Notes under the pieces: generated by a model
Seen by the model: the letters and a program-made list of their open reading frames with translations, nothing else
Databases searched by the model: none
Told to the model about the DNA's origin: nothing
Made by a program: the position numbers and the translations under genes
In this document: positions 6,601 through 62,390 of the stretch, piece after piece
Layout of the letters: every line of letters begins with the position of its first letter
Numbering within the stretch: position 1 is the first letter of the stretch
Assembly (NCBI RefSeq): GCF_963678975.1
Contig: NC_089275.1
Coordinates: 14,911,682-14,975,681 of the forward strand
Direction of reading: 5' to 3'
Length of the DNA: 64,000 nucleotides
Origin: Dysidea avara
Lineage: Eukaryota; Porifera; Demospongiae; Dictyoceratida; Dysideidae

Positions 6601-6689
6601 GCAAATGCGAGATCGAGATACTCTAATAGAACAGTCACCCTAATAGAGCATTCAGCTAATTTATTTACTCCATTATAGAATTCTATTAC

Positions 6690-9965: not shown

Positions 9966-10026
9966 TTTGAGCTGAAAGCTGCTGCAAGGATTCTCAAAAG
10001 TCTTGCAGCACTTGCTACTCTACTCT

Positions 10027-18224: not shown

Positions 18225-21200
18225 ATGGCTAGTGGGGAAATGAGCTTGCAGGAACAGAAGAGAGTGTTGACTAACAACCATAAATTTATTGTTGATAATC
18301 TGGACGCTGACGACGTGATTGACGAGCTAATTCAGGAGGAGATGATAGGCCGTTATGCCGCGCAACGGGTACAGCTGGTGAGGATGAGTAGAGTAGACAA
18401 GAATAAAATTATTGTTGATCAACTAAGTATCGCTGGACCAGGTACTCTGGAGAAGTTTTGTGAGATTTTGAAGAGGAACAAGCGACAAACGTTCATAGCT
18501 GAAGAATTGGAGAAATGTAGTAAGAAGCCGTAAACATTACAATATCATTTGTACCAAAATTTTCATATTCTTACCTCTTGTTTGTATCCTACAGGTGTCC
18601 GTTCAACTACTAACAAATGTCCTATAGTAAAGTACGGTCCAGTAGGTATTAGCAGATTACAAGCGAGGTATCTCACATACTTGTCCACTGACTGGCCACA
18701 TTATTATGTTCGACTGGCTCTGGTGAAAAGAGAAAAGGTGACAAGAGCAGATAAGAACTTGGAAGAGATCACAAGATTAACATTACAAGGACAAGTTGAT
18801 GAAATATTGTTGAAGAAGGAACAACTTGGTGAGCTGAGGGACATCTTCCACTACCAGAATAAACCTTGTCCTCGACTGATACTAATAATGGGAGGCCCAG
18901 GTGAGTATTACAAAGTATTAGTATAGTGATGTATTATGAGTTATGCAGGTATAGGCAAGACAACCCTTGCCAATGAGATCTGTGTGAAGTGGGCTAAGAG
19001 GGATGGGTTTTTATCTGAGGACTTTGATATTGTGATCTTGATACCATTAAGGTCAGTCCAACAAAGGTCAATTGAAGAAGTGATGACGGAGCACATTGGA
19101 GAGGAGACATACAAGCAAGTGAAGAAGTCAGCAGGTAGCAGATGTCTAGTGATATTGGAGGGATTGGATGAGATGGCAGCTGAACATCGGGAGAGTGATC
19201 CATTTTTTGTACGCCTGGTAAAGGAGTGTACATTGTTGGAGAAAGCCATAATAATAATTACATCAAGACCACATGCTTGTGAGAAGCTGGATGCAGGCAG
19301 GAGAGTAGAAGTGGTAGGATTTGGTAAAGAAGAAATCCGAGAGTTTGTGGAGAAGTCATTTACCAACAATGTGAAAAATGTTGAGGAGTTTTCACAGCAG
19401 TTGAAGGAGTATCCTCATTTAGCAAGTTTGTCATATGTTCCTATGAATTTAGAGATGATAGTTGATATATTTGAGTGTAGTGAGAAGAAGCTTCCATCCA
19501 CCATTACTCAACTGTACCGACTGTTCATTGTGATGACACTAGAAAGACAATTTAAGAAGGGGAATGAGAGGAAACTAGTGTGTTCATCTGTAGCAGCAGT
19601 TAATAGTATTGAGGGGAAATTGTGTAAAGTGTTAGCAGGTGTGCCCAAAGAAGCAGTGAGAACAGTATTGTTATTGTGTAGGCTAGCGTATCATGGTTTC
19701 TTTGACTGGTACTCTGAAAGAAAATGGACTAAGTGGAAGGATCCAAAGATCATCTTTACTGTGGCAGACCTGAAGGAGTGTGGTATAGAGGTGACAGCTG
19801 ACTGGGACGGGTATGGTCTTTTCAAAGCTACACACACTCGTCAGTTACCCACTAGCACTATTACATACACTTTTTCACACTTAACCATCCAGGAGTTCTT
19901 GTGTGCTGTTTATATTTCATTATTATCACAAGAAGAGCAGCAACATCTATTGAGTAAACACTTTAGTAACTATCCTAATGTGTTCATATTTTTGTGTGGA
20001 GTAATAGGAGTAGTGTCCAGTGAAATGTTCCAGTTTGCATTTTTTGGAGAATGTAGTGATTGTATAACAGCAGTAAAGTGTTTGTATGAGAGTCAACAAA
20101 CTAGTCCACCTCAACTAGTTATACCCATCAGATTGGAGATAAGAGGCAGTTTACTACCTTATGACATTGTGTGTATCTCCTATGTGATGTCATGTTATCC
20201 AGTTTCAGAGTTGCACATGATTGAGTGTCACATTGGAGACAAAGAAGCTGAATTGTTGGTAAAACATTACCCCAGCAAGGACGCTACACTACTGGAAGTA
20301 TTACACCTAAGGCACAATAACAATCTCACTATTGATGGGCTGGTACACATAATGAAGATTGTGAAGACAAGTAAGCCCCACTATTAGCTGTTGATACACA
20401 GAGTGACCATTATGTGCTAAGTGAATTGACTACACCTCACCTCACTGTACGTGTCTGTGATGTCTTGTGCTATCATTACAGGTAGTGCCTCATTAAGAGT
20501 GCTAAAATTTCGTGTTAATCCTAATATTGGTGATGATGGGATATCATTAATATCAAGTGAACTCCAATACAATAACATTCTGACTGAGCTAAGGGTACCA
20601 GTCTGTGGATTAACAGCAAAAGGTAGTGTGTGTAGACTGGTAGTGTTTGGGATTACAACAGATTGTGTTGTGTGGTTTCCTTAATTATTACTGTTATAAT
20701 CACTACAGGTGCCATTTGTATCAGTGAAATGTTGGGAAAGTATTCACTACAAGTCCTTGAGATGACAGGCAACAATATCGGTAACAATGGCATCACAACC
20801 ATTGCAGGAGCACTTTGTAATAGTCATATTAGTGAATTGTATATTAGTGATTGTGGCATTACCCTTACTGGAGCAAGATCACTTGCAGCAGGATTACTAG
20901 TCAACAACAGTATTAGGATATTAAATGTGTCGGGTAATTCCATCGCTGTAGAAGGAGCTTGTCTGATATTACAGTCAGCTGTGGACAACGGCATCTGTCA
21001 AGAAGTTGTTATTTATGATAAGGGGTTCGGTAAACTAAGGGGTGATGAAGACTACCGGAATGATGATGAAGTGAAGAGGATGATGATAATATTGGAACAG
21101 AGAAAGATACAAGAGGTAATAAGAGGTTGTGCTACATGTTGTAATACAGATTGTAATGGTAACAGACATCAAGACTAAAAGAGACTACAGAGCAGGTGAA

Positions 21201-31851: not shown

Positions 31852-32601
31852 CTACTTTGTGCACACTACACAAGAAAGAGCATATCCATCTTGAGGTACA
31901 TATGATCCAGATGCACGGACTGTGTAAAATAATTGTGCATTACCATCACAACCTCCACTACTTTTTATTTGCTCAAGATTTTCATCAATACAGTAATACA
32001 TGCTACTGCCTTCATGAGCATTATTTCCCGCCATAATATAGCCATTGTACTCTTTATGCCATCCATCTGGACACACATAATGTGAGGGGATCATTATTTT
32101 ACTGCTTCTTCCTGTTGCTTCACATAGAGAACAAGGCATATTCCGACATGTGCTATGATCAATGGCTCCACCAGTGCGATATTCTACAGGAAAAGCATAT
32201 TCATCTCCATGTTGATTATTTAAATAGCGCATTGGATTTTGAGGCAAGCACATTAAATTAGATGGTGCACCTTTATCAGTGTAACGGCCTCCTACAGCAG
32301 TTCCTTTGTAGAGAGTATTGGCTCCATATGGACATGTAGTGTTGCCCCATCTGATATAACTGACCACTTGTGGACAGCCTTTTGTCTTCATGTCATCTTC
32401 ATTAGTGGCATTGTTAACAGATCGCTCCTCCACTTCTCTAGTGGTCCTCACACTGACCTCCTTACTCATCATCTTTGCTTCTAGTCGCTGCACTTTAGCA
32501 AGAAGGTAGGAGACTAGGGGAGAATCGGGGTCTTTATCAGTAACCTCCGCTGCATCAGTAAGGAAGATGACACAGGACAGTATCAGAAGAAGTATTTTCA
32601 T
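31852..32601 (-). CDS. short-chain-collagen-like secreted protein (intact copy)
   Basis: A single-exon gene of 249 residues. The signal peptide is MKILLLILSCVIFLTDA. A 45-residue stalk follows with a leucine-rich coiled-coil stretch (YLLAKVQRLEAKM) and a dibasic-acidic linker. From about residue 80 comes a cysteine-rich globular domain: GCPQVVSYIRWGNTTCPYGA, YKGTAVGGRY, NLMCLP, CRNMPCSLCEATGRS, SHYVCPDGWHKEYNGYIMAG, YYCID and a final GYALSCVVCTK. The order of motifs matches the C-terminal domain of sponge short-chain (spongin C4-like) collagens, which is homologous to collagen IV NC1-type domains. The coiled coil stands where those proteins carry Gly-X-Y repeats, so it is probably a secreted oligomeric matrix protein. 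All family cysteines are present, unlike in the other copies here. Function beyond the family resemblance is inferred. Confidence 0.85.
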   Translation of the reverse strand: MKILLLILSCVIFLTDAAEVTDKDPDSPLVSYLLAKVQRLEAKMMSKEVSVRTTREVEERSVNNATNEDDMKTKGCPQVVSYIRWGNTTCPYGANTLYKGTAVGGRYTDKGAPSNLMCLPQNPMRYLNNQHGDEYAFPVEYRTGGAIDHSTCRNMPCSLCEATGRSSKIMIPSHYVCPDGWHKEYNGYIMAGNNAHEGSSMYYCIDENLEQIKSSGGCDGNAQLFYTVRASGSYVPQDGYALSCVVCTK

Positions 32602-34708
32602 TTTGAGCTGACAAAATAGTCCCAGTCCCTATAGCAGTAAAATAATAGCTACTTTCTTAAATACTGGCCTGTGTATGGGTATGGCTAGTCAGGTGTGTAA
32701 TCTGCAATTTATATATTCAATAATGATGAACTAACTGACATATGTGTATACACCAGAGTATGTGTACTAAGAAGGGCTAACAAATATATCCTCCTTTCTT
32801 ACAAATGCAGCATGATGGCATCTTTGTTGTAGTAGCTTTAAGTAATTAATTGAGTTGTTTTAAAACTGGCTTGTTATTTCAGTGTTACATATATTGCATG
32901 AAATGAAACAAGTTCTTTATTTTCATAAATAAACTACAACACTATACAGGGAGAACATACTATAATATAGTAAAATAGAAAAGTGAAATTCTCTACCACC
33001 CTAAATTCATTAATTACGTGGATTGTGACAAATGGACATTATGATTATGGCTTGATAGAATTACTTTAGCACCACTGTAAACAAAATATCTCCTATACTA
33101 ACCGTCATATTTATCTTTACTTTAAGCAGAAAAATGTGGCAATGTGAACTTCTGGATGTCTGCATAGCTGTGCTGTACCTCAAGTATTTTATATAAAACT
33201 CTTTTTGAAATATCTATAATTTTCATGCTGGTTTCTATCAACAATTACATCAAGATAAGTACACCTCTTCTGTTCAAAGTAGCTACCTGAAAACACCATA
33301 TCACATACATCTTAATTTTGCATGACTCATGTGTTTTCATAGAATTTTGGTAACTTCATGCAGTGCTCATGAAACTTTATTATGCTGTATAAGATGTTAG
33401 TTACATAATCATGCAGATATTGATACTAGATATATATATACAGTACGTAACTTAGGGTGTAGTTTGTGCTGACATGCTCAGTGCCCATGGTCAGTCACAC
33501 CAATAATGCAATCACTGTTTTGTAAATATATACTAAAGTACAAGACTGTATATGGTGGCAGTTGGCAGCTCTGATAATAAGTTCACTGAATGGTATAAAT
33601 GCTAACATCTGTTGAACACATGTTAATAATGGTGTTTCTCTTGATTTCAACAGATTGTGAAATGAAATATACAAGTACATGCATATAGATGTGTGATAAA
33701 GTATGTACTGTTATTCATTCACAAGTGGTAGGCCTGTGTCAGTGCAATAAAAGCATAATAGGCTAGAGTGCTATGCTATCATAATGCTAGTATATTAGGT
33801 GGATATTACAAACTATGGAGCTTAATTCCTTGAAAACAGATAGATTGATAGATGATTTTACCTCTTTGCAGACGATCAGCAGCCAGAACCACTCTTCTTC
33901 ATTGGAGGGTCACAAACACACACATGCAAACATACAGACACAGTAGAGCACACATACACAATGACAGGTACAATACACACATAGCTACACATGACAATAT
34001 GTACAAAATCATTCAACAAAATTAATAAAATATAAATATTAGATCAATACTCCCTAATAGAACAGTCAGTGGAAGAGCATTCAAACAAGGTTATTGTAAG
34101 AAATGTTGCTAGCCTATATAGGAGCATACTGAAGAGCATAATAGGTGGAAATTTAAGCTGAAAGCATTTTGGGTTAAATTTTGAACATATTTTACTTAGA
34201 AATACAGCTGTAGCACCAGAATAAGCAGCCATACTAATAGTAGGGATGGTTGGCAATAGTCGGTGATGAATTAAAGTACATATAAAGCTAGGTAAATATT
34301 CATACAAAAAGTTAGGTTAATTAAGCTATATCGTACAGTTCAGCATAGTGCTGTATAGTAGGGAATATAGTGCTTTTCACAATCAAAATTGTTACTAAAT
34401 TTAATCTCAGAAGGCTAAATTTTCAGTGCAAATTGGGGCATGCCCCCATACAGACTCCTAGTTAGAACACCCTTCGTGTATTGAGTGTGCTTTTTTGAGT
34501 GACTTCCACCATATGACCCCTAAGCAAATTCAGTGTCCTGTTGTATAAACCTGAAATTCCTCTGATAATTTCTAGATCTGTTACTGTGCTGGTCAAGTTA
34601 TGCTTGGCTGAAGGCATCAGGTAGTCAAGTCAGTTGATATAATATATGTAGAAAATTCAGTTTAATAACAAAAATTAATAACAATACATCTTTCAAAACT
34701 TATTGTGG
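32602..34708. other. spacer
   Basis: AT-rich sequence with no convincing gene. It holds a copy of the dispersed TCTAATAGA motif at 34047-34082 and a hAT-interior fragment at about 34430-34500 (GGGGCATGCCCCCATACAGA). The immediate upstream of the secreted-protein gene lacks the clear TATA box seen in the other copies. Confidence 0.4.
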
Positions 34709-42628: not shown

Positions 42629-42685
42629 AATAGAGTAACAAGAACTTTGCAGAAGTGAGACTGTACTACTAGCAGCCTGCTTAGA

Positions 42686-43183
42686 ATGAAAATGCTTCTA
42701 TTGATATTCTTTTGTGTCATCTTTGCCACTAATGCTGCAGATGTTACTGATGAAGATGTGAATTCTCCACTAGTCTCCTACCTTCTTGCTAAAGTGCAAC
42801 GACTAGAAGCAAAGATGATAAGTAAGGAGAACAGTGTGAGGACCACAAGAGAAGTAAAGGAGCGATTTGTTAGCAATACCACTAATGAAGCTGACATGAA
42901 GACCAAAGGCTGTCCACAAGTGGTCAGTTACATCAGATGGGGCAACACTACATGTCCATATGGAGCTAACACTCTTTACAAAGGAACTGCTGTAGGAGGT
43001 CGTTACACTCATAAAGGTGCACCATCTAATTTAATGTGCTTGCCTCAAAATTCAATGCGCTATTCATATAATCAAGGTGGAGATACTGTGGCTATAATCC
43101 AGTAGAGTATCGTACTAGTGGAAGCATTAATCATGTGGATTGCAGGAATGTGCCTTGTTCTCTATGTGATAGCATGTGATGGC
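42686..43183 (+). pseudogene. short-chain-collagen-like secreted protein, copy 3 (broken)
   Basis: The frame opens with a signal peptide (MKMLLLIFFCVIFATNA), the coiled-coil segment YLLAKVQRLEAKM and the first half of the globular domain (RWGNTTCPYGA, YKGTAVGGRY, NLMCLP). A one-base frame change near 43100 ends the main frame at 43105. The other frame then continues PVEYRTSGSINHVDCRNVPC and SLC until 43175, where homology stops and sequence of the long-TIR family begins. The last third of the gene, with four or more cysteines, is missing, apparently through that insertion. It keeps the CRN cysteine lost in copy 1. Confidence 0.85.
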
Positions 43184-44533: not shown

Positions 44534-47486
44534 TCAACAACAAGAAAACAGACAACATTTTTCCTCATCAATTTCAGGATAGCCATAGTTGTAGAAGTGC
44601 CAGTAGTATGCACCAAATTGTAAAAATAAATCAAAGTTATCTTTTTCAAGTCCAAATTGAAGAGTTGCAACTTTAACAGCTTGTTCTTGCTTGGCACAAA
44701 GTAGTAGATCAATGACAAGTTGTTTTGCTGGTATTTTAGTAGGAATTATTGCAATGGCTGTAGCTACTTTTTTGTCCAGTTCATAATCCAGGTTAAACCC
44801 AAACATATCAGTTATAGCACCAGTGGCAGGGTCCTCAACAACATACGTGACTATATAGCCTGGTACTGATGAAAATAGGAAATAGTGTGAGAACTCTTCT
44901 TCAGTTTGGAAGATTTGCCCAAACTCAAACTGCAATACATACTGGTTGGTGAGAGTGCATGCCTTAGGAACATCTTTGGATGTCATCCTTCTCAATCCAG
45001 CTGTTTTGGGAGTGTTGTAGGGTAGAGGAAGATGAAATGGACTAGAGAGCCAATAACAATAAGTAGCTAGAACAGTCACAGGTTTTATAATGAAAGGTTC
45101 TTCGCTGACTATTATGCCTTGAGATATTCCAATTAAGTTACCTTTTCTCATTATTTCTCTGACTACTGTATTGTGCATTTGTTCACTGTGCAGAAATTTC
45201 CTACCAGTATAATGCAAATGCAAAGCAGTTAAAACTTTTCCTCCAATACTAATGCTAATTGGAAAGCTAAAAAGTACTGAGGCTAGCTTACCATTTGATT
45301 TTAATCTAGTTCCAAATAAAAATTCTGATTTAAATTGAGGATGCAAAGTGTACCACCACAGGTAGTTCTTATGTTTATACTGTCTGATTGTATTATCAAT
45401 ATCGAGTAGCTTCACCATCTCATCAACATTGTCATAGGTCAGATTGGCCCATTTTAACTCTTCACGTAAGATATATGGCTCCTTTCTCACATGCCCTGTT
45501 AATTTTACAATAGAGCCAATCTGTACTTCTTGTCCACGCCATAAAACAGGCAGCCCCAGCCACAACACAACTTTAGGAATTGTTAAGTAAGAGATTGCCT
45601 GTGGTGGGAGTTGAGATTGCTTCTTACTCAATGATAGGTACGCCTGAAAAACATGATCAACATGAATTTGCCATATAATTTTCACTGATCCAAGTACAAT
45701 TTTGCAAATTGTACATGTGTCTGAGCCAATTTGGAAGAGTTCGTTCTCCAGGTAAAACCAATGCTTGTGTAATTCACCAATGGTCATTTTCTGGGGGTCC
45801 TTATTAAGAATCTCCTGAATTACAACATGACCAGGCTTTTCACGCACTATTACTGGAAAGTATGGTGCTGCTTCCTGAAGAGTCATGGAGAAGAATGTTT
45901 CTTTGAAATTTTTCAAAGACTGTTGTGCAGCAGGTACCATAGAAGCATTCACCATAGCCTCTAGCATTCTGGTGTCCAAGAAGTTCCAATATGAAGTTTG
46001 TGCTAACATTGTGCACAGAGATTGAAATGATAAAGCTGCAGTAACCATAGGAAGGATTTCATGTGACTTGGGAAATCGTTGTGACTTGGCACTCTCAATT
46101 GCGGCTCTTTGTATGATGGGAAAATGACGATTTTCTATAGCTGTTGTTACAGCACTTGAGAGTCTTGAGAAAGCTAATTCAATATCTTCATCCTTTGAAA
46201 ATGTAAGTGGTGAGGCAACAGTTAAAGCCACTGAATCTTTACAAAATCGTTGCACTAATTGTGAACCTAATTTAAACAAGACAAGCAACATAAGTTGTGT
46301 AGAAATCCAGTATATTAGTAGAGCGGCATAGCACCAAAAAATGAGCATTTCGTGCACTTTGTGATACAATTATGAAACTTTCCACACAAATTGTGCTCCT
46401 TGTGACATATGTTTTTTGATATAGAGCCATCACGGATTTGACCTTTGGTGACCTTTTCAGCCATTTTTCATAGAAAATAAATTATTATTGTCTTTATCTC
46501 CCTAAGGCATTATTTTACACTCTTAAAACATGGTATCAAATTAAAGGTGTTGATCTAAGAACTACATTGACTTTTTGTTTGAAGTTAGTAACTCATTCCA
46601 CTACAACCTATGATCATCATAAAATTCGTTGCCCTTGGGGTGTAAATTACTAATGGGCAAGTAATTCATAGAATTTCATGGCTAATAGAAATGATCATAA
46701 CTTTGGAATGCAATCACCTATCAACTTCAAATAAAAGCCGAGTAGGTTGTTTTAGCAGCACCTTTAATTTGAAACTGTGCAAAACAATGCCTGAGGGAGA
46801 CAAAGACAAAAATGATGAATTTTCAATACAAAAATGACTGTAAAGGTCACTAAAGATCAAGTATGCAATGGCTCTATATCAAAAAATGTATGACACAAGG
46901 AGTATAACTTAATATATGGAAAGTTTCATAATTGTATCAAAGAGTGCACAACTACCGCACTATGCTGCTCTACTAGTGTAGCAAATCAATGAGCAAAAGG
47001 GAGATTTGCAATACCTGAGGTCGTCCTGCTAGCAGGTGTTTAAATAATTTAATACCCTGCTAGCAGGTCTTTTAGTCAATTTTAAAGACCTCGTTATCTC
47101 CCAAAGATCATAGCATTTTATGGATACCATTTTCTAAGCTATAATAGTTTTAAAGCTACACATTTTTTTTTCAGTAAACTGCTAAACCTTACCTTCAGTG
47201 GAAGACACTAACATTCCCTCAATCTTAGATGCTACATCATTTAATTCAATTCCAGGTTCCCTCAGTGTTTTAATTAACTGGCTCCATGTAGCCTCAGGAT
47301 GCTTGCGTAACCATAACTCCAACATCTCCTCACAAGCCTTACTGGAATTTGTAGCATGATTTGTTTTGATGATGTGCAAGTCCTTTACATCTTCTTCATC
47401 TAATAGCTCCAACCCAACATCGTACCATTTTGGAGCAATCAATACTCTGACATGTCTCAAATGTTTATGAGTTGGATGATCAGCAC
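44534..47486 (-). CDS. Death domain / novel domain / N-myristoyltransferase-like fusion
   Basis: Two exons are supported: 47486-47193 and 46266-44534, spliced in phase 1 (CTGAAG then GTAAGG; AAATTAG then GTTCAC). The first encodes a Death domain (LIAPKWYDVGLELL, CEEMLELWLRKHPEATWSQL, ASKIEGML). The second gives 577 residues. Its first ~270 (MVTAALSFQSLCTML, ILNKDPQKMTIGELHKHWFY, LTIPKVVLWLGLPVLWRGQE) match no family I can name. The last ~295 follow N-myristoyltransferase: LWWYTLHPQF, ISIGGKVLTALHLHYTGRKF, TPKTAGLRRMTSKDVPKACT, TEEEFSHYF, YVVEDPATGAITDMFGF and YYWHFYNYGYPEI. The acyl-CoA loop of known enzymes (KKLRSKR) is replaced by GRKFLHSEQM, and the C-terminus, whose carboxylate is catalytic in NMT, is extended to CCLFSCC. 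Activity is therefore doubtful. The true start lies in an upstream exon not identified. The N-terminal 34 residues of the long frame are intron and MITE sequence. Confidence 0.75.
46311..46981. mobile_element. 670-base long-arm MITE in the intron
   Basis: Arms of about 240 bases (TAGTAGAGCGGCATAG, GATACAATTATGAAACTTTC, TTTTTTGATATAGAGCCAT, TCTCCCTAAGGCATT) pair with complements in 46740-46981, at roughly 80-85 percent by eye. The spacer is about 180 bases. TA-rich edges suggest a TA target. It fills most of the 926-base intron of the Death-NMT-like gene and creates a spurious N-terminal extension of the second exon's open frame. Confidence 0.75.
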
Positions 47487-47603
47487 CTACAACATGTAAT
47501 GGTAGTGAAGTAACTTTTCTACAGGGACAAATTACACAAATCTTGAAAAGGGCTGGGGTTACAAAGAAGTGGATAATTTGCTTGTTCTGCACTTCAATTT
47601 GTA

Positions 47604-48136
47604 TAGGTAATCACACACATTTGAGTGTAATTAGGGAATAATTGTACGAGTAACAGTCAAAATTGCACGAGGCGAAGCCGAGTGCAATTTTAGCTGTTAC
47701 AAGTACAATTATTCCATAATTGCATGAAAATGCGTGTGATTGCCTACTAATCACATAGTGACTACCCTTCATGGTTGTAGTACACATCTATCCAGTTCTA
47801 TGTGGCCATTATAACTACCAATCTACCAGGTGATTGCATCATCCTTCTTTGTATTACACCATTTGTTGTTGCACTTAAAAGGCTTCATGTGTCAGCCATT
47901 CTGATTGGATACTCAAAATGTTTACATATGTTGCATTTAAAAGGCTTCTATTGTCAGCTTCTTTGATTGGCTATTCATTACATCACTCTCTTGTTGCACT
48001 TAAAAGGCTTCTGTTATTCCGCTATTTTATTGGCTACTTTACAGTGCAATTACAGAAACAAGACCATGCGATTTGGGATTAATTGCACTCCTACTATTGA
48101 GACTAATGTATGGCAAATTAAATCACTATGTGATTA
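47604..48136. mobile_element. 528-base MITE family, copy 2
   Basis: Nearly identical along its whole length to 11111-11638, including the GCACGAGGCGAAGCCGAGTGC palindrome and the three GCACTTAAAAGGCTTC repeats. It lies about 110 bases upstream of the Death exon on the gene's 5' side, so it may separate that exon from the missing first exon. Confidence 0.75.
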
Positions 48137-48184
48137 ACATAGCCAATCATACTTTTCTTGTACTTAACAAAGAATTACTTAAGT

Positions 48185-48750
48185 ACTAGTATATTAAAAA
48201 TTATAAATTTATAAATGAAGTAGGAATCCAAGCAATAAAAAGTAGTGAAACAAGAGATGAACAATTATATTATTATAGGTAATAATTGTAGAACTCACAT
48301 GAGTGAGTATGTTACAATAGGTGTAATAATTTAGGCTAAGTTACGCTATTTAAATGTTCCTTAAAAGTATCTAAATTGTTACAATTTATAGTTTCTATAG
48401 ATAGATTGTTTCATAATCGAATTGATGTAGGAAAGAAGCTGTACTTGTATGCGTCAATAGCTGTGTCTGGCTGTATAAATTTAAGGTCACTGCCCCTGGT
48501 ATGCCTTGTTCTATGTGTTATATAGTTGGGTAGTGAGACATCCACGCTACTATGAATAATTTTGTGCAACATTTGAAGTCTTAGATGTTTGAAGTGTGGT
48601 ATAACAGTGGTATAACAATTATCAATGCCAAAGTAGGATTTCCTACTGAGTTATACTGTAATAGCTACCATTGTTCATCTCTTGTTTCACTACTTTTTAT
48701 CGCTTGGATTCCTACTTCATTTATAAATTTATAATTTTTAATATACTAGT
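48185..48750. mobile_element. foldback MITE split by a LINE insertion
   Basis: The left arm 48185-48264 (ACTAGTATATTAAAAATTAT, GAAGTAGGAATCCAAGC, AAAAAGTAGTGAAACAAGAG) pairs almost perfectly with 48671-48750. The interior is interrupted by the LINE fragment at 48269-48614. The AAAAAGTAGTGAAACA segment links it with the foldbacks at 21637 and 43569. Confidence 0.75.
48269..48614 (-). mobile_element. short 5'-truncated LINE copy with 8-base target duplication
   Basis: Matches the last ~330 bases of the LINE at 15908-17820, including the ATA-type tail and the end of the C-terminal coding region. ACAATTAT is repeated on both sides (48261-48268 and 48615-48622). About 15 bases at the 5' junction (TATAACAGTGGTATA) do not match the parent and may be filler added during insertion. 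Confidence 0.8.
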
Positions 48751-51700
48751 TTGTTTAGTTTTTTGATAAAGCATACAGCTAGCTATAAACATGTGACTGT
48801 TCTATTAGGGTGACTGCTGTATTAGAGTATCTCGAATCAGCCTGCCAACTTGAAGATGTGTGGTCACAAATACAGCTAGCGTAAAAGGAGTGTGGTCATG
48901 GTGGTCTCGATTAATAGATCGATAATACGTAAAATAAAGAATGGGCATGATGTTATGATCTAACATGGAGTACTGGTACCTCCGTACAGTAGCATAGTCT
49001 AAGCGCCTTAAATAATTTTGTGGCGTCTATTATGCTGCTTAAAGAAAGATATGGAAAATTAATGCCTCAATATGGTTTCGTTGGATGAAGAAGAAGACAA
49101 GCAGTCTGACTGAAGATAAAAGAGAAGACAAGGCGCACAGGGCATACACTCGTCGGAACCCCAAAAGGCACATCCCATCGGTGAATTTGTTGTTGTGGCG
49201 TAAAATTGTGACCGTGCGCTGCTTTGTTTGGGCTCTAGGCTTGCAACTGTGATCAGTGAGTGAGTGAGACAATGAATGAGACAAAATATCGAATTTTGAC
49301 TATTTTTTTAAAATTCTATACCCAGCCGCCAGTAAGCATTTTTTTAACACTACATTTGATGCTAGATGGACTAATATTATTCCGTAAAGGTGATTTTCGT
49401 CACATAAGAAGTTTCTAAGCTGGTTTTTATAAGAGATATTGTAGGCGGCACGTGTCATTTCGGTGGAATTCCTACTTAAACAGTACTACCGTACTGTTTG
49501 ATTAAAAGGATCTATGTACCGCATCTTATAATACTAAGCATATATATCTGTCTGCAAATATTATACACACACTTATGTAGGCTTCAAGTATTTGTGATCA
49601 TACATGATGAACTTGCATAGAATTAGATGCATGGGCATTATTATGTGACATAATATTCTTGGTTGAACACTAAAAAGGGCACTGTACTGTATGTACAGTC
49701 AATACCACAAAGTATTTTACCTACGTACACCAATGTGTAAGGTTTGCTGAGCAAAATAGGTTTCTATACCTGTGACATAGGGGTGGCAGAACTGGGTAGG
49801 CAGGGTAGGATTAGGAGCAGGGGTATCAGAGTAAAACTGAAAGTGGTAAGGCTCACTCTCCCCTGGAAAATTGCACATTTTATGCTATTTGAAGGTAAGT
49901 TTTGGACTGTAGTATTGTGTGCAAGGTGCTAGTTAGCTAGCTCCAGTCCCTGACAAGTGCTCAATAATAAAATTGCACATTGATCAAATGGCACATCAGT
50001 CTGAGTCCATATTACTGTTTACCACTTAGCTAAACCTTGCCATTTGAGTTGGAATGCTTACAAAGTGGCTACAAAGAAAAGCAAAGCCTAAGCTAAACAT
50101 ACCGAAATTTATTTTTAGAGGCGTTTAATATGGACGAGGTCGACCTGAAGCTAGTCTGAGTGACAAATAGGTTAGATAAGTGTTGTTTCTGTCAATTGTT
50201 GCCATTAAATAAATGCTAATTACTGCATGTTCACTTCTTAAAGCATTGACTTAATCAAGTTTGAAAGTTTTTTTATTTCAGCCAAAAAAGTGGTGAGAGT
50301 CTGGCCTCACTGGTTGCACCAACTCTGATGCCATTGATTAGGAGACAATATGAAAAGACACAATAAAGACAAAATGTTTGGTGCCAACAAGTCCAACTCA
50401 ATGCAATTTATCCCTTAGGGAGGAATGTTACTATAATGTTACAAAATGGATCATATTTTAGTTTTACATAGTCTCAATGCACCTGGTATAGAGAAGCTCC
50501 ACTATACAAAGACAGCTACATTTGCCCACATGAGCATAAGAATGTGTAAAACTTCTTATACCTACTGTTTAGTACACCAATCCTACATTATGTACTGCAT
50601 GCAGCAGAAAACTTACATTCATAGTGTAAGAAGAATAAAAAGAGGTTGCTTTCATAAGTGACCTATAATGTGGGAAAACCATCTATGTACAAACATTAAT
50701 AGATTGTGAGATACGTATCTATAGCAATCCACATGTGAAAAGCAACCCAAGTAAATCAGTAGCATGGATGTGTTGTGTATTGATGTGGCTATCCATTCAT
50801 AGTGAAAAGTCAAGTTAAACTGTGTGTGCATAGTTCAACAGTTTTCAAAAATTTGATCACATGTAACTTTTAGGATAAGGCTACTGCATACTGTAAGTGA
50901 CTGGATTCGCCAAAACCCAACATGTCAGTACTAAGAATAATTCATACAGTAACTATGTAATTACTGTCAGTTTCTGTAATTTGTAGCTGTATTCCATACA
51001 GCAACCACTTCTATACTTTTCGTTCCACTTTGTTTTCCAGAACCGCTTTTGCACAAGGCTAACTGTAAAAATATGAATGGTGATGATATACTATTGACTC
51101 TAGCCCAAACAGGTGGAATCTGAAAAAAAAAATCAATCTCATGTTCAGTTGGATTATTAATCCGTAGAAATGTATTCAACCACCACCACATGCACCAGTG
51201 AGGTTAATGTTCAGCCTTGTGCTAATAGCCACACTATGATATAATGACACCACTGAAAAATTGGCAGGAAGGTTTATCAGCAGCTCTATGCACCTGGGAT
51301 GATTCGAAAAATAAAAAAAATTGGTATACTGTATAAGCGGTAGAGGGCCACAGCTTCACAACTGCTGGAAAGCACTTTAATATGTCATACATGTCTGACA
51401 TTCTCACTTGACATTCTCCCTTATAGTGGGTTTTCCTGCACATATACCAACAGTGTTTCCAAGTATGTGACATCGATGTGAATGTTGTGCATTTAATGCA
51501 GTAAGGAGTACATCAGGGTGGCTATTAATTTTTTACAGCAGCCATAATAATGATGAATAATGAATATTTTTTTACTATTCTACAGCAGTAAATCCATTAT
51601 GACTCAGCTATCAAACACACTAAAGTAAGTTTATGGTGAGTTCAAGGTGAGCATTGAATTGGAGGGCACAAAATATACTCCAATAGAACAATCAAATACA

Positions 51701-52229
51701 ATAATAGAGCAGCGCAGCCATGTGTATATAACACCGTACACTAAATGAGTTCTACAAATGCATTTGATTTACATAATTTCAAAATTGCTGGTAAGTGTAC
51801 CTTTTATCACTGCTGTAAAAGTAAGCTTTCATTTGAGCTGAGCCATGACCATCCTGATATGCATGTCACAATTTACTTTTCAATTGCATGGGTTTGCCAT
51901 TCACTCATCACTTCTCCTTAGAACCCACGTTTAGTGAATACCACACAGAATCAACATAATTTTATTACTACAACTTATTTCAGCTACATAATCAATTGGC
52001 TATTGCTAAAGGGCAATTACAAATTGTTTAGATGTTTGATCATAAAGGGTGCACCAACGAGACTGGTTATTGTTTGATTATCAGGAATTATACATCCCAA
52101 GCCACTTCTTCCCCTTATTCTTTTGTCAAAAATGAAGCATGTTTGATTGATTAAGCTAATGACTTGAAAACACACCATTAATACAAGTACACGTGTATAA
52201 GGAAAAATGAAGTTCGAATAGAGATCACA
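48751..52229. other. gene-free spacer
   Basis: About 3.5 kb with no convincing coding exon. Copies of the dispersed TCTAATAGA motif occur at 48794-48836 and 51674-51715. A less AT-rich stretch at 49050-49270 with a short acidic frame (MVSLDEEEDKQSD) may be an old promoter or first exon, but nothing supports it further. The frames at 50967-51191, 51234-51473 and 52017-52376 were not recognised. Confidence 0.4.
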
Positions 52230-52854
52230 TTGAAATTTACGGTAGTGCCTGATGGCTTCCCTAAAGTTGTAAATGGAAACCGCTGTAGTGAGTGGATTAA
52301 CTGCAGAGGCACTATATACTAGTTTTCTTCCTGTGTAATGAGTTGAACATAGCTGAAAGCAAAGTGTAATGCCCACTTCACTTTCGAGTCAGTAATTAAT
52401 ATTTGAGGCATGTGTTCAGAAGAAATTGAAGTAGGGATTAAATGAAGGGGTCAGTGGAAAAACTACATTTTGACATTTGCCATTTTGTAAAAACAAAATT
52501 GTTGGTTAGGCATGTTAATGATATCTAATCCAAAACAAACAAGCAGCACAAAAATTCACCTGAATTGTCGTTATTAAATTTTTACCATTAAACTACCATC
52601 ACAGCCATTTCTTGGCCGCCACCTTGGATTTCACATCTTTTTTCACCATTGTCTTTTTGAGGGCCGCACACTTTTTTTACAGCTTAGCTGTTCATTTCTT
52701 TTTGTATTTGTATACCCCAAAGGCCGGCTTTGGGACTTTTTTAACCTACCTTTTTTTTACCACAGGAAGAAGAAAAGATGAAGTAGATGTACTTTAAATA
52801 TTTTATCAGTAAATGTACAAATTATATATATAATACATATATTGATTACAGAAA

Positions 52855-55120
52855 TCTCCATGGTGGTTTCTTTGTAACTGAACACTCTACAAGGTGACTT
52901 CTTCTAGATGCTCTCTCTACAGGGTGAATTATTTGTAGCTGAACGATCTACAAGGTAACTTCTTCTAGCTAATCTCTCTACAGGGTGATTTGTTTGTAGC
53001 TGAATTCTGTACAGGCGATTTTTTTGCAGCTAAGCTCTTTACAGAATGGTTTCTTTGTAGCTGAACTCTCTACAAGGTAACTTCTTCTAACTGATCTTTC
53101 TACAGGGCAATTTGTTTGTGGCAGAATTTTATACAGGGTAATTTCTTTGCAGCTGAATTCTCTACATGGTGGTTTCTTTGTAGCTAAACTCTCTACAAGG
53201 TAACTTCTTCTAGCTGATCTCTCTACAGGGTGATTTGTTTGTAGCTGAACGATCTACAAGGTAACTTCTTCTAGCTGATCTCTCTACAGGGTGATTTGTT
53301 TGTAGCTGAACTATCTACAAGGTAACTTCTTCTAGCTGATCTCTCTACAGGGTGGTTTGTTTGTAGCTGAATTCTGCACAGGTGATTTGTTTGCAGCTGA
53401 GCTCTTTACAGAATGGTTTCTTTGTAGCTGAACTCTCTAAAAGGTAACTTCTTCTAACTGATCTTTCTACAGGGCAATTTGTTTGTGGCTGAATTTTCTA
53501 CAGGGTGATTTCTTTGCAGCTGAACTCTATACATGGTGGTTTCTTTGTAGCTGAACTCTCTACAAGGTAACTTCTTCTAGCTGATCTCTCTACAGGGTGA
53601 TTTGTTTGTAGCTGAACGATCTACAAGGTAACTTCTTCTAGCTGATCTCTCTACAGGGTGGTTTGTTTGTAGCTGAATTCTGTACAGTGATTTGTTTGCA
53701 GCTGAGATCTTTACAGAATGGTTTCTTTGTAGCTGAACTCTCTAAAAGGTAACTTCTTCTAACTGATCTTTCTACAGGGCAATTTGTTTGTGGCTGAATT
53801 TTCTACAGGGTGATTTCTTTGCAGCTGAACTCTATACATGGTGGTTTCTTTGTAGATTAACTATCTACAAGGTAATTTCTTCTAGCTGACCTCTCTACAG
53901 GGTGATTTGTTTGTAGCTGAATTCTGTACAGGTGATTTGTTTGCAGCTGAGCTCTTTACAGAATGGTTTCTTTGTAGCTGAACTCTCTATAAGGTAACTT
54001 CTTCTAGCTGATCTCTCTACAGGGTGGTTTGTTTGTAGCTGAATTCTGTGCAGGTGATTTGTTTGCAGCTGAGATCTTTACAGAATGGTTTCTTTGTAGC
54101 TGAACTCTCTAAAAGGTAACTTCTTCTAACTGATGTTTCTACAGGGCAATTTGTTTGTGGCTGAATTTTCTACAGGGTGATTTCTTTGCAGCTGAACTCT
54201 ATACATGGTGGTTTCTTTGTAGATTAACTATCTACAAGGTAATTTCTTCTAGCTGACCTCTCTACAGGGTGATTTGTTTGTAGCTGAATTCTGTACAGGT
54301 GATTTGTTTGCAGCTGAGCTCTTTACAGAATGGTTTCTTTGTAGCTGAACTCTCTACAAGGTAACTTTTCTAGCTGATGTCTCTACAAGGTCACTAGTTT
54401 GTAGCTGAACTCTCTACATGGTGGTTTCTTTGTAACTGAACTTTCTACAAGGTGACTTCTTCTAGCTGATCTTTCTACAGGGTGATTTGTCTGTAGCTGA
54501 ACTCTCTACAAGGTAACTTCTTCTAGCTGATCTCTCTACAGGGAGATTTGTTTGTAGCTGAACTCTCTACAGGTGATTTGTTTGAAGCTGAACTCTCTAA
54601 ATGATGATTTCTTTGTAGCTGAACTCTCTACAAGTTAACTTCTTCTAGCTGATCTCTCTACAGGGTGATTTGTTTGAAGCTGAACTCTCTACAAGGTAAC
54701 TTCTTCTAGCTGATCTCTCTACAGGGAGATTTGTTTGTAGCTGAACTTTCTACATGATGGTTTCTGTGTAGCTGAACTCTCTATAAGGTAACTTCTTCTA
54801 ACTAATCTCTCTACAGGGAGATTTGTTTGTAGCTGAACTCTCTACATGATGGTTTCTTTGTAGATGAACTCTCTGCAAAGTAACTTCTTCTATTGATCTC
54901 TCCACAGGGCGATTTGTTTGTAGCTGAACTCTTTTACATGGTGGTTTCTTTGTAGCTGAACTCTACAAGGTGATTTCTTCTAGCTGAACTATCTCTTTCC
55001 ATAGTTGCATGAACTCCCTACAAGGTAACTTCTTCTAGCTGATCTCTCTACAGGGTGACTTGTGTGTAGCTGATCTCTATACAGGTTTCTTGTTTCTAGC
55101 TGATCTCTTGAATTCTCTTC
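52855..55120 (-). repeat. 31-base satellite array B
   Basis: About 73 units of the reverse complement of array A (consensus here TCTACAGGGTGATTTGTTTG then TAGCTGAACTC). Unlike array A it shows clear higher-order structure. A multi-monomer block beginning CAGAATGGTTTCTTTGTAGC and containing TACAGGGCAATTTGTTTGTG recurs near 53043, 53409, 53715 and 54085, so blocks of about 300-370 bases were duplicated. The end nearest the module (about 55060-55120) is the most degenerate. Confidence 0.9.
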
Positions 55121-55123
55121 AGG

Positions 55124-55965
55124 GTGACTGCTCTTAGGATGACTACTCTATTAGAGTATCTCGATCTCGCACTTGCTGCACCAAGTTGGATTTCGTGTTA
55201 TAACTCCGTGGCTTTAAGTCTGATTCTTCTACACCATTGATGAGCCTTTCTAAGATGATTACTCCATCTGTACAACAATTTTCAAAGCATTACCCCAAGC
55301 GGTTTATCTGGTAGGCGTGGCAAGCAGTCGTTTTTTATTAGCTAATCTCGATTGCGTAATTGTTACATACTGTTGGTTTTTTCGTTGTATCTTCCTGTTT
55401 TTTAGCTCGATTTCTTTCAAACCACAAAAGGTTTGAGGTTCACTAGTTAACCTATTCACCCACCGCTTTTCATCTTCTTCCCATACGCGGTTTACCCTGT
55501 AGGCGTGACAACATATTGGTGTTATTTTTCGTGAATAATCGCTTATAACTCTTTGCCTGTTTATCGTATTCCAGCCAACGTTAGTACCGAGATGCGCCTT
55601 TATACCCCCCTTCTGTGTGCCAAATTTCAAGGAAATCGGATATGGCGTTCGCGTTTTATAGCAGTTTTTGTAAGTTTGCGACAAGTAAAAGAAAAATAAG
55701 AAGGAAAAAAAAAACCAAGAAACTGAGCCAATTTTTGAAGTCGCATATCTCGGGAACGCGTGAAGCGATTTCGCTCAAATTTGGAATGTGGAGTGCTGCA
55801 GTTGGAGGGCATGTCCACAGCAAAAATCGTCTTGTTTCATCAAGGAAGCACAGAGCTACGGAGGTGCAAAAATTGCGTTTTCTTTCTTCCTGTCAATATA
55901 CTCACGGGTGTTACGCGCCGGCTTCTTGGGCCGCACGACACACTACCGTGTTTCTTGATTTCCAC
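55124..55965 (-). repeat. satellite-associated repeat module, copy B
   Basis: Reverse-orientation counterpart of 5706-6610. It begins at the dispersed motif (55124-55168) beside the satellite and ends at the hairpin with CACGGTAGTGTGTCGTGCGG. Its minus-strand frame 55304-55684 (126 residues) shares LKFGTQKG, DYSRK and CCHAYRVNR with the 115-residue frame of copy A. The opposite-strand frame 55615-55986 shares AISLKFGM with copy A's opposite strand. The copies have diverged with several indels. Confidence 0.7.
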
Positions 55966-56490
55966 AAATTTAACAACAAGACTTAAAAGTTCAAGTCACA
56001 ACCAAATTCAAATTTGCAATATTTTACGACAATTCAGGAATGTCTGAAATTTCTATTTAATGTCCACTATAGACCCATTTTATTTTTCAAATGTGGGTTA
56101 CCCCCTTTTCCACTGACCCCTTCAAATGTTCACAAGTACATCTGCAGGTGTAAGTGACCACCCTTGTTTCCCTACATTTTGATCCTAAGATCAAACCTAA
56201 ACTTCCTAATTTTTTACTTTTTGTAACATGATTATGACTGGTGAACCCACACATACCACATCAAAAGAAAGAATGGCACCAGGCTTAATGTTTTTGTCTG
56301 AACACACGCCCCAACTATCAGTTTACTGAATCGAAGTGAAGTGGCCACTTTCAGCTATGTTCAGTCCATTACATGGCATTACAAATGAAGAAAAGTAGAA
56401 GTGCCTTTGCAATCAATCCAGTCACTACAGAAAAAGCGAACAATTTCCATTTACAAGTGTAGGATAATCATCATGTGCTACCACAAATTG

Positions 56491-57852
56491 ACACCTTGGA
56501 CTGTCAGAAAAAGAAATCAAACACAAAGGAGGACAAAGGTAAGCACATGGTGCATGCATTATATGTACTGCAGTATGCCAAAAGGCACCTATCGGGCTGA
56601 AGCGACATTGAACAGTAAAATAAGTCAAGCCCATAGCTTTAGTCATTATTGAGTTACACTTGTCCGAAGGTATTAGTAAGTCAGTCCATCTGTCCGTTCA
56701 TTTAGTCAATCAGTAAAAAAATTCATTGAATAAATAATTAAAAATTTTGTAGCAATCTGTGGAAACGTTTAGGTCTACAAACCTCCATGATACCTAGTAA
56801 CACCGTAAAACTAGTCAATTAATCAGTTAATTAATAAATTAATGGACAATCAAGGCAATAAAACTAAACGTTAAGGCATTAATCAACTGGTGTAGCTAAG
56901 GAGTTGTCAATAATTGACAAAAAAGCAATTGGGAGCTGTCAAACAAAATAATTTTAAAATGTCAAAGCAATTCTTTAAAATACCACATGTGCATAACCCT
57001 CAACAAGAATGTGCATAAACAAAAGATACGTAGAATTCAATTTCCACTTGTACTATATACTTCACAAGTTTAAAAAGCAAAAATGGAATAATTGCTGTCC
57101 CTATATATGTAACTGCCTGTATTCCCGCCTCTCAAAAACAATTGCAGATTTTATTCCTCAATATCTCTACAGCAATCTACACCATAAAACAAAGCTCCTT
57201 CATTGTTCTTTCTAATGTCACCCGAATCATTTTGATAGTGCTGCCATGGCTGGCACATGTTGCCAACAAACCATTGGTATAGCTATAACATACTGAAAAG
57301 TCTGCAGACATTTGTTGATGGCAAAAATTCCAGCTGGAACAGGTATTTCCACTACATTTTGATTGAAAAACCATTAAAAATTTAATTGATTGTCTATCTC
57401 GAGTCTGTTTAGTAACTTCTGGGTGTGATATATACATGTAGAGTAACTGTCTACGAGTACAATGTTGCCAGAAGAAGTCCGATTCATGGAAATTTTGGCG
57501 CGTTATAATAGACCCAGTGTAGCAAGTTCCCCAGTTTTTATGGCAAACTGAATGGTAGATATTTGGAAGGGAATGCTTTGAAGCTATGTCAATGTGTTGA
57601 CCTTCACTACAGTAGTGTTACAATGAAACAAAAGCATTGTAAATTAGTTCTACAGGTTAGTTTGTGAAAATTACAGTGTTTCCGTGATTAAGTACAACTA
57701 TTATGCCCGTTTCATGTAGCATACTTCTTCATATGATTAAATTAACACTGTTGACATTTTGCCGGTCATTGCTATTAAAAAAATAAATCATGACACAAAA
57801 GGTATAAGAAAATTAATATTTAACGAAGAAGAAAAAAATCTTGAAGCAACCA
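56491..57852. other. spacer
   Basis: No gene was recognised. The frames at 57009-57215 and 57177-57437 lack recognisable features. AATTAATTAATAAATTAATG-type simple sequence occurs near 56815-56840. Confidence 0.4.
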
Positions 57853-59404: not shown

Positions 59405-62390
59405 ATTAATTATTTATTTATTTATGACGTAATTTTAACCGCGTTTCGTATTATTCTTAGTACTTGGTTGTATAATTATATATTGTGTACTGTGCAGGAA
59501 TCATGTATGATTATAATGCACAGGTGTAATTATAAAAGTGTCCAAATCAATACAAAACTCAGTGTATGTGGGAGCATTAACAATGTTCTGGGGTAGATTA
59601 TTCCATAGTTTAATCACTGAAGTGAAGAAGGAAAATTTAAAACTATCCACTCTAGTATTTAGTTGATTAAAATAGCCACTTCGTAAAAAGGAGGGAACGG
59701 GAGTTAAACAATCATCTGGAATATCAGCTAAACGATGAATGATTTTATACAGCATTTGTAATTTTAATTTTTTCTTTCTGCTCTGCAGGGTGGGCAGATT
59801 AAGATCAGTTAACATTGTGGAAACACTGGAGAATCTAGAAAAGTCTTTATAGCACATTCTTTCAGCAGATCTCTGTACAGCTTCTAATTGATTAATATTA
59901 ACACATGTGTGTGGGTCCCAGACTGAGGAAGCACACTCCATAATAGGGCGAACCATTGCTTTATAAATATTACATTTAATCGTGGGAGGGCATTGATAAA
60001 GATTACGATGTAGGAATGCATTAATTCTGTTGGCTTTACTAGCAACTTGTTTTGTGTGTTCATTCCAGTTAAGATGTTGATCAATGACTACACCTAGATA
60101 TTTAGCATGAGTGACTTCTCGGATTGTGGAGTTGTCAATGTGGTAAGTAAATGGTATGATGTTTATCTTGTTTGTTATTCGTAGGAATTCCTATTTAATT
60201 GGATTAAAGGTCATAAGCCACTTGTGTGCCCACTGTGTTAAGGAGTCAAGATCACGTTGTAGTTGATGGCAGTTCTCCACGGAGTAGATATTTGAGTAAA
60301 GTATAACATCATCAGCATAAAGTCGAACTTTACTTGAGACATGTAAAGGAAGGTCATTGATGTAAATCAAAAATAATAATGGAGCCAGAACAGTTCCTTG
60401 TGGTACACCAGATAGCACGTTACAGGAGTCACTTTGTTTGTTATCTAACACTACTTGTTGTGATCTATCAGAAAGGAAATTCTTAATCCAAGACAAAAGA
60501 GGTCCTTTAATACCATAAAATTGTAACTTGTGGAAGAGACGGGAGTGGGGGACCTTGTCAAAGGCTTTACAGAAGTCAAGCAGTAACACATCACATTGCC
60601 TTCGTTGGTTTAAGCATTGTGCAAAGTCATGTACTGTTGTAATTAGTTGTGTCTCACAACTCCTATGCTGCCGGAAGCCATGTTGTTCATCTCTTAAAGC
60701 TTGATGATGATTCAAGTGTTCAAACATGCTAGAGTAGATAACGTGTTCCATGATTTTTGAACATATACATGTGAGTGATACAGGACGGTAGTTGGCAGGG
60801 TCCTCCTTACTGCCTTTCTTATATACTGGAACTATCAGAACAGATTTCCATATGTCAGGTATGGCTCCTTGGTTCAGTGACACTTGAAAAATTATAGAAA
60901 GGGCAGGGGAACATTTGCTACCTCTTTGAGAAAATAAGATGGAAGATTGTTTGGGCCTGCAGCTTTGTGGGCCTTTAAGGTGTGAAGCAATTGAGATACC
61001 CCGTCAGAGTGTATGTGAATCGGTGGAATTTCAGGGAGAGGGTTACCTTCTAATACTGGTACATTAGTAGTGTCTTCTTGTGTAAAAACCGATGAGAAAT
61101 ATTCAGCTAGAACATTTGCTTTAGACAAAGAGTCGGTGTAAGTTGTTCCTTGGTGTTCAAGTGTACTAATACCAGTACGATCTTGTTTTCTATTTTTAAT
61201 AAAAGACCAAAGTTTCTTTGTAACATTATTATTTTCATCAATAAAACTTGATACATAATTATTAAATGCTGAACAACATTCCCGTTGAGAAAGTCTTTTG
61301 AGGTCTTGATAAGTAGCCCAGTCACTTAGACTGTTGGTTAAATGAGCACGTTTGTATGCTCGTTGCTTCTTGCGAGTTAGTTGTTTGATTTGTCTGGTTA
61401 TCCAAGGTTGCTTTTGTTTGGTTGTGCTCCACTTAGTTGGTATCAGATTTAAACATTGTGTACAGATATCAGAAAACTTATTCCATAAGATGTTAATCGG
61501 AGTAGTGGGTGGGTAAGTGATGACAAAATCTTCGCAAAGTGACTGAATGGATTGTCTAATATGATTGAAATCAGCTTTGGACCATAAGTAAATACGTCTC
61601 CTAGCAGGGGGACATAGTTGAGCTAATATCATGGACTTCGTAAGTACAACTTCATGGTCACTGATACCACCAACGCTTTCGCAAGATTCAACCAAGGAAG
61701 GTCTGTTTGTGACAAAAATGTCTAATATGTTGGATCTCCTAGTTGGAAAGTCTACAATTTGACTGAGACCATTATCGTAAAGGAATTCAAGAAATGTGTT
61801 GTTAATAGTAAGGGAATACTGGTGACCCTCAACACAGTTGTCTTCCCAGTTGATATCTGGGAGGTTAATATCTCCAGATACCCACATTGCTGAGTTAGGA
61901 TGATTACTCTTGATAGCTTCTAAGTGGTTACACAACTGGTTGAGGTATTCATCACTGCTAGATGGGGGATGGTAGGCTGAACATACTATTAAGTTACTAT
62001 TGTTTAAGAGTTTAACCTGACAAGCAACTAATTCACAATGATTGTTTGCAATTTCTAAACTACATGAAATTAGAGGTTCACAACAGGCGACAAAAACACT
62101 ACCATAGCCATCACTACGGTCTCTACGATACACAGAGTAACCTGCTGGAAAAACTTCACTTGATAATATGTCAGGTTTGAGCCACGATTCTGTGCCAAAG
62201 ATAATGTCTGGGTTATATGTATCAAGCAAGTTAAAAAAGGATTCCTTCTTAGCTAATAAAGATGGACAATTAACAGTTAGGGATGTTAAAATAGGAGAAT
62301 CATTTGCAAGGGGTAGGTCAGCAAGGGGGTGATTATCAGTGCGGGGAACACTTAGCGTGGTGATCTCCGGTATGGCAAGCCGTTTGTTTC
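59405..62390 (-). mobile_element. nearly complete CR1/jockey-like LINE: endonuclease plus reverse transcriptase
   Basis: The minus-strand frame runs from about 62390 (in-frame ATG at 62229). The APE-type endonuclease comes first (GTESWLKPDI, YSVYRRDRSDGYGSVFVACC, VSGDINLPDINWED, GGISDHEVV). A linker (QPWITRQIKQLTRKKQRAYK) leads to the reverse transcriptase: VYKKGSKEDPANYRPVSLTC, LLDFCKAFDKVPHSRLFHKL, SGVPQGTVLAPLLFLIYIND and VRLYADDVILYS. The C-terminal part (LEAVQRSAERMCYKDFSRFS) ends at 59501. Only two defects were seen: a one-base frame change near 60900 and a TAG after FNPIK at about 60191. The 3' tail is TAAA-like near 59405-59430. No ORF1 was found. This is a distinct family from the LINE at 15908. 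Confidence 0.88.

Follow-up and report, generated by a model that had tools for sequence, protein, structure and literature searches.

What is the fold of N-myristoyltransferase (NMT) doing behind a Death domain in a sponge? The question is raised by one gene in a 64,000-nucleotide stretch of the Dysidea avara genome (hereafter the window, meaning that stretch at its full length), in which an earlier note had seen a Death-domain exon spliced to a longer exon with NMT-like features. In an early-branching animal, a housekeeping enzyme fold appears here to have given rise to many copies coupled with death-fold signalling domains.

Exons and splice join of the window gene

The gene lies on the minus strand. 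Exon A (47193..47486) encodes 97 residues in a symmetric 1-1 phase and was delimited by splice signals and by its match to Pfam Death (PF00531); this match (E 2.1e-7, 31.4 bits) exceeds the curated cut-off of 22.6, as do those of the Death domains at loci L014, L016 and L018. A phase-1 intron of 926 bases (46267..47192, GT...AG), recognized by its splice signals, separates exon A from exon B (44534..46266), in which the open frame and the family matches define 577 residues, comprising a domain designated X and an NMT domain, followed by a stop codon. The sequence TTGTAG/GT precedes 47486, GAAG/GTAAGG is found after 47193 and AAATTAG/GTTCA precedes 46266. The exon A-exon B junction is in phase 1 and the frame stays open across it. 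With these consensus splice signals and the open frame, the joining in phase 1 of a Death exon (47486-47193) to a 577-residue exon, as described in the earlier note, is upheld. Since exon A itself starts in phase 1, at least one further 5' exon belongs to the gene. On the minus strand from 47490 to 57000, the only Pfam matches (E <= 0.01) fall inside a tandem array and none is to NACHT.

The splice signals of exon A are retained in the near-identical copies L002 and L003, and its phase-1 donor is common to L014 and L016. The nearest copies are 0.949-0.955 identical to the window in the intron and 0.956-0.969 in the exons, a similarity so close between intron and exons that these copies tell little about the link between the two exons. 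Compared with L002 and L003, 19 and 27 window positions are gapped in the intron and none in either exon, and exon B of both copies holds a 9-base in-frame insertion relative to the window. Differences at first, second and third codon positions number 22/11/39 (L002) and 23/12/41 (L003) in exon B, while those in exon A (4/1/5 and 3/1/5) are too few to carry much weight.

Three trivial explanations were considered. A pseudogene in the window is rejected, exon B being open with dN/dS values of 0.25, 0.25 and 0.48 against three close copies. Chance similarity or a wrong reading frame is ruled out by the Pfam, PDB sequence and fold matches given below. A wrong splice join is unlikely in view of the splice signals and their phase, the upstream association of Death and CARD-like exons relative to controls, and an uninterrupted CARD-X-NMT open reading frame (ORF) in a relative.

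A complete NMT domain and a module without known family

The NMT domain spans 44537..45586 on the minus strand and contains both GNAT halves, with a shortened connector between them, as judged from Pfam, Foldseek and alignment. Exon B matched Pfam NMT (4.5e-11) and NMT_C (2.1e-15), both above the curated cut-offs, and a phmmer search of PDB sequences retrieved human NMT2 (E 3.4e-19). An AlphaFold2 model of exon B, built on an alignment of 34 family members, reached a mean pLDDT of 86.5, and its top Foldseek match was human NMT1 (5npq_A, E 8.8e-27, TM-score by target length 0.84). Structure prediction with fold search and an HMM search had been proposed as checks on the NMT similarity; the former led to human NMT1 and the latter returned NMT and NMT_C as significant. 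Based on these Pfam, PDB sequence and predicted-fold matches, the modelled NMT part is complete, at approximately residues 228-577. Hence the NMT likeness reported earlier holds, but not its restriction to a C-terminal half, since both NMT halves are present.

Module X (45587..46216, minus strand) was delimited on the AlphaFold2 model and the lack of a Pfam family. The model (pLDDT 87.2) places a helical part first and then an alpha/beta part in the order beta-alpha-beta-beta-alpha. X had no Pfam match over the cut-off, and a fold search of the PDB gave no match with E <= 0.001 (best 0.23), so that no known fold can be assigned from it. The description of this region as a novel domain is thus right in that X has no known family or fold, but X is not unique: it is a repeated module, with at least 25 loci in the same genome matching X alone. 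These X-only loci have the X module in common with the window gene, and 13 of the 25 show a Death match upstream on the same strand within 40 kb and none downstream, among the matches listed. Unlike in the window gene, the match stops at X. Downstream DNA was read at one such locus (C6:34848820), where a small ORF without family and then a second X-like module follow (L063, 64-420 and 976-2049); the latter aligns with X at an hhalign probability of 94.7% (E 5.8e-8). An X-only locus running into a second X-like module suggests a wider family of Death/X proteins.

A multigene family beside one ordinary NMT

The window's own assembly (550.8 Mb, 108 contigs) was searched with exon B. Among the best 76 of 158 candidates, at least 41 loci were found to bear NMT and at least 25 X only, while 10 were fragments; because only the best candidates were scored, all family counts are lower bounds. 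The NMT-bearing matches are 31-100% identical to the query, and 37 of the 41 are free of internal stops, which the other 4 contain. NMT_C alone gave at least 48 matches in the assembly. Across the 23 pairs computed, dN/dS of the whole exon ranges from 0.18 to 0.53. A multi-exon, ordinary NMT is located at C3:760426-775676, taken as one gene as its family matches and exons share one strand, and is the sole genome match to a DNA pattern for KFG[FILMV]GDG. From these searches, the genome apparently encodes one ordinary NMT and about 40 X-NMT loci, most of them with a death-fold exon upstream.

A maximum-likelihood tree of the NMT domains resolved clade A, which has 17 members including the window copy, and clade B, with 16; A, B and A+B each received 100% UFBoot support. 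A single locus, L034, falls outside both clades and adjoins human NMT1. It consists of a 681-codon X-NMT-like ORF (C1:63389139-63390206) that retains HKKYGGKR and is the member nearest to the ordinary NMT. Its NMT part is nearer to the enzyme (PDB E 4.9e-54), and an X-like region is visible by eye in the same ORF. Consequently, the union of X and NMT is probably older than the split between the two clades, and L034 is a candidate for an earlier state of the family. Another member, L011 of clade A, has an 895-codon open frame (4005-6689) with an upstream part made of a long SQGPxQS-type repeat entering X. A bacterial or viral origin was also considered and set aside: pattern scans for relatives returned 69 stretches in prokaryote contigs and 37 in IMG/VR, none of which was confirmed.

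Death exons precede most of clade A, and CARD-like exons most of clade B

To examine which exons accompany the X-NMT exons, we used 21 clade-A and 22 clade-B exons, L034 belonging to neither clade. Loci absent from the tree were assigned to a clade by identity in the exon B search; of the 10 fragments, 4 were omitted and the other 6 combined into 3 clade-B loci. Among the best 150 of 704 Death candidates and the best 150 of 416 CARD-like candidates, at least 16 of the 21 clade-A exons have a Death match in the 15 kb upstream of them on their own strand, compared with 2 that have one downstream and 0 with one on the opposite strand; for CARD-like matches and the 22 clade-B exons, the corresponding figures are at least 15, 3 and 0. 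At random places on the same contigs (2000 draws), the mean was 0.09 of 43 for Death or CARD-like matches, with maxima of 3 and 2. Among the matches listed, 5 of the 21 clade-A exons are without a Death match and 7 of the 22 clade-B exons without a CARD-like match within 15 kb; one of the latter, L028, has a Death match about 5.5 kb upstream instead, and 5 clade-A and 6 clade-B exons have neither head. Death was rejected as the head of clade B, being found upstream within 15 kb of 1 of 22 exons among the matches listed.

The N-terminal exon of clade B was found by comparing upstream ORFs of 7 paralogues. On contig C11 (24711442-24713532), a clade-B member reads uninterrupted through the CARD-like domain, X and NMT in an ORF of 696 codons in the DNA read (711 in the exon B search) with an ATG at codon 27. 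This single ORF is direct evidence of an intron-free CARD-X-NMT fusion in clade B. The assignment of this head to CARD is itself weak. The domains of L024 and L023 scored 17.4 and 18.0 bits, below the curated Pfam CARD cut-off of 23.9; at E up to 1, 9 of 12 clade-B exons match Pfam CARD, with a best value of 0.0018. In two stretches upstream of clade-B loci, nothing matched Pfam at E <= 0.01, and the comparison of clade-B CARD-like exons with PDB sequences found no CARD.

Non-conserved Thr282 and loss of the CoA grip in clade A

In the window copy, the CoA-binding loop (45179..45202, minus strand) reads RKFLHSEQ where human NMT1 and NMT2 align with HKKLRSKR, in agreement with the changed loop pointed out earlier. 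The CoA-holding residues K253/Y254/K257/R258 are lost in clade A, the window copy included. In clade B, by human NMT1 numbering, K253 is kept in 15 of 16 members, position 254 (L in the human enzyme) is Y in 16 of 16, K257 is kept in 14 of 16 and R258 in 16 of 16. Because clade A is without the residues that grip CoA, an acyl-CoA-binding role for the window copy, one form of the acyl-binding module suggested earlier, finds no support. Judged on these residues, such a role would better suit the CARD-bearing clade B, which may still hold CoA.

Both NMT signature motifs are absent from 34 of 34 aligned members. Relative to human NMT1, the alignment also indicates a shortened Ab-loop in addition to the shortened connector. 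The available text of PMC7048800 describes Thr282 of NMT as the catalyst platform. The corresponding position is V in the window copy and F in L034; in clade B, 2 of 16 members (L037 and L039) have threonine, and in clade A none of 17. With the CoA loop lost, Thr282 replaced and the connector shortened, the window protein is most likely no working NMT.

The C-terminal tail CCLFSCC (44537..44557, minus strand; family alignment) had been read as an extension. The window copy has 13 residues after NYGYP, and human NMT1 has 12; the tail is thus only about one residue longer. Tails of 10-13 residues are found in 30 of 34 aligned members, and L017-L020 have 33-66. All 17 clade-A tails share C[LV]F, and 15 of them share CC[LV]F.

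Fast change in the former peptide pocket

Peptide-pocket positions of NMT were taken from the accessible text of PMC7048800 and PMC10380619, hence independently of the family data. The strict set comprised the clearly mapped positions 190, 192, 282, 296 and 405, of which 4 were usable in clade A. Positions 188, 298 and 311 (gaps or deleted connector) and 495-496 (beyond the aligned human core) were left unused; positions 180 and 246, which map uncertainly, were kept outside the strict test, and tests including them were also significant. Codon changes were counted by parsimony on the clade trees, with 15 of the 17 clade-A members (without L003 and L035) and 16 clade-B members. In both clades the pocket positions rank among the fastest sites: in clade B they averaged 17.0 nonsynonymous changes where the NMT domain averaged 6.1 (p 1e-5, 5 positions), and the clade-A averages were 13.0 and 5.4 (p 1.2e-4, 4 positions). 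Sliding the pocket columns by 14 offsets gave lower means in both clades, an offset of +2 giving 16.8 (B) and 11.7 (A). Of the 40 fastest NMT sites in each clade, 16 are common to A and B over 325 shared columns (p 1.2e-6).

When sites are picked for fast change in one clade, dN/dS at them in the other is 0.76 (in B) and 0.61 (in A). At pocket columns with their immediate neighbours (+-1), it reaches 0.51 and 0.63, compared with 0.41-0.42 for the rest of NMT and 0.25-0.30 for X, which is more strongly constrained than NMT. Positive selection at the pocket is unsupported, since pocket and fast-site values, although above the rest of NMT, stay below 1. Synonymous changes are also raised in the clade-B pocket columns (5.4 versus 2.9, p 0.008), which suggests that older or exchanged segments may account for part of the clade-B excess. 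With dN/dS below 1 and synonymous changes raised in clade B, relaxed constraint, or copies exchanging segments, is a serious alternative for the pocket. In the clade-B alignment, synonymous changes per site are roughly 2-4 times scarcer in the well-kept framework blocks than in the variable ones, a hint that copies may have undergone gene conversion or exchanged segments.

Other features of the window

An NLR-like gene lies about 23 kb from the Death-X-NMT gene, where, at 18930-21178 on the plus strand, an ORF encoding NACHT (Pfam E 4.2e-18) precedes one with LRR (LRR_6 1.5e-11). Three related ORFs with signal-like starts (9294-10019 minus, 31852-32628 minus, 42659-43105 plus) look like sponge short-chain collagen C4; the one scanned, at 31855-32628, had no Pfam match. 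Remains resembling a non-LTR retrotransposon occur on the minus strand at 59501-62388 and 16163-17778, with an endonuclease domain (1.5e-9) in 60895-62388 and what we take to be reverse transcriptase. Two large arrays of a related unit of about 31 bp (6693-8797 and 52855-55108) stand in opposite orientation about 44 kb apart and flank the Death-X-NMT gene.

What the NMT fold may do

For the family, the architecture, the predicted fold, the loss of CoA residues in clade A, the non-conserved Thr282 and the fast-changing pocket are established. The proposal in the earlier note that an NMT fold was recruited beside a death-signalling domain, probably in non-catalytic form, agrees with the sequence, the structure prediction and some 40 paralogous loci. 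The accompanying domains and the variability suggest an immune function. We put at roughly even odds (probability about 0.5) that the window copy is a dead NMT acting as a variable sensor that feeds a death-fold signaller. Its NMT fold would no longer transfer myristate; instead, its variable surface would bind a peptide, an acylated ligand or some foreign protein, and either that binding or its loss would cause the Death domains to cluster and set off a death or immune response. X would probably be a relay or oligomerisation module, and clade-B copies could have retained (acyl-)CoA as a cofactor. We favour the sensor reading because a death-fold front, a relay module and an NMT, dead or CoA-filled, with a groove that varies among copies together have the look of a sensor and its read-out. 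A broader claim, tentative and possible rather than probable, is that an animal lineage made the NMT fold into a diversified family of intracellular receptors with a variable groove, formed in one clade around bound acyl-CoA, and with Death- or CARD-driven assembly. On this broader claim, the family would stand next to leucine-rich-repeat receptors and integrated decoys as another kind of variable sensor with a death fold, and might read the N-termini or the acylation state of foreign proteins. The CoA grip of clade B offers a direct way to test whether such sensors read acyl-CoA or protein acylation.

Alternatively, the pocket may simply have drifted after catalysis was lost, the fold persisting as a structural or oligomerisation platform and its variation having no role in recognition. 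The dN/dS values below 1 at fast sites fit such a relaxed pseudoenzyme, as do the retention of Thr282 in just 2 of 34 aligned members and the absence of both signature motifs from all 34. Yet drift alone would not lead one to expect the near-invariant CoA-holding residues that clade B keeps beside a variable pocket, and the fast sites common to both clades and the 37 of 41 NMT-bearing matches without internal stop also speak against it; we regard it as rather unlikely. In another reading, clade B at least still consists of active acyltransferases, each copy acting on a different acceptor, with CARD or Death governing these effector enzymes; the CoA loop kept in clade B speaks for it. In 30 of 34 members the tail is of a length that would leave the C-terminal carboxylate close to its normal position, and changes in the pocket need not abolish the enzyme, since the available text of PMC7048800 reports that NMT Tyr180Phe/Asn246Ala retains 89% of relative kcat/Km. 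Against this stand the rarity of threonine at position 282, the shortened Ab-loop and connector and, in the window clade, the missing CoA grip; we consider this reading improbable.

The NMT module could also be a decoy that mimics host NMT as bait for pathogen proteins attacking myristoylation, much as integrated decoys act in plant NLRs. In its favour, a host enzyme has multiplied into copies that sit behind signalling domains, while a single ordinary NMT stands apart from them. Features that are mimicked ought to stay, whereas here the fast sites include the old pocket, and no attacking protein is known; this explanation is the one we consider very unlikely.

Comparison with known systems

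Human NMT1 and NMT2 share with the window gene both NMT domains and, in the predicted model, the fold over about 350 residues. They differ from the family as a whole in that the latter is joined to X and a death fold, does not conserve Thr282 and has a shortened connector, and from clade A in particular in that the CoA loop is lost there.

In plant NLRs with integrated decoys, a host enzyme-like domain is fused to a signalling receptor. The X-NMT genes likewise combine an enzyme-like domain with a signalling part, but this part is a different one, no effector is known, and the fast sites include the active-site pocket.

A Death-NMT architecture had been thought undescribed, and none was found in the open-licence literature, where no paper came up that combines myristoyltransferase with death domains in sponges, with sponge genomes, with CARD in invertebrate domain architectures or with gene-family expansion in innate immunity; titles pairing N-myristoyltransferase with pseudoenzymes concerned other subjects. 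The closest parallel in sponges is with the NLRD and NLRC genes, the Death- and CARD-NACHT-LRR genes described in the available text of PMC12909245, whose main text contains no word beginning 'myristoyl'. As far as that text describes them, these NLRs resemble the X-NMT genes in having a Death or CARD-type domain on the N-terminal side and in forming a multi-gene family. Unlike them, the X-NMT genes have no NACHT or LRR in the stretches scanned and carry an NMT fold on the C-terminal side. If the pocket of this fold is a recognition site, sponges would own intracellular sensors that are invisible to NACHT, LRR or TIR searches.
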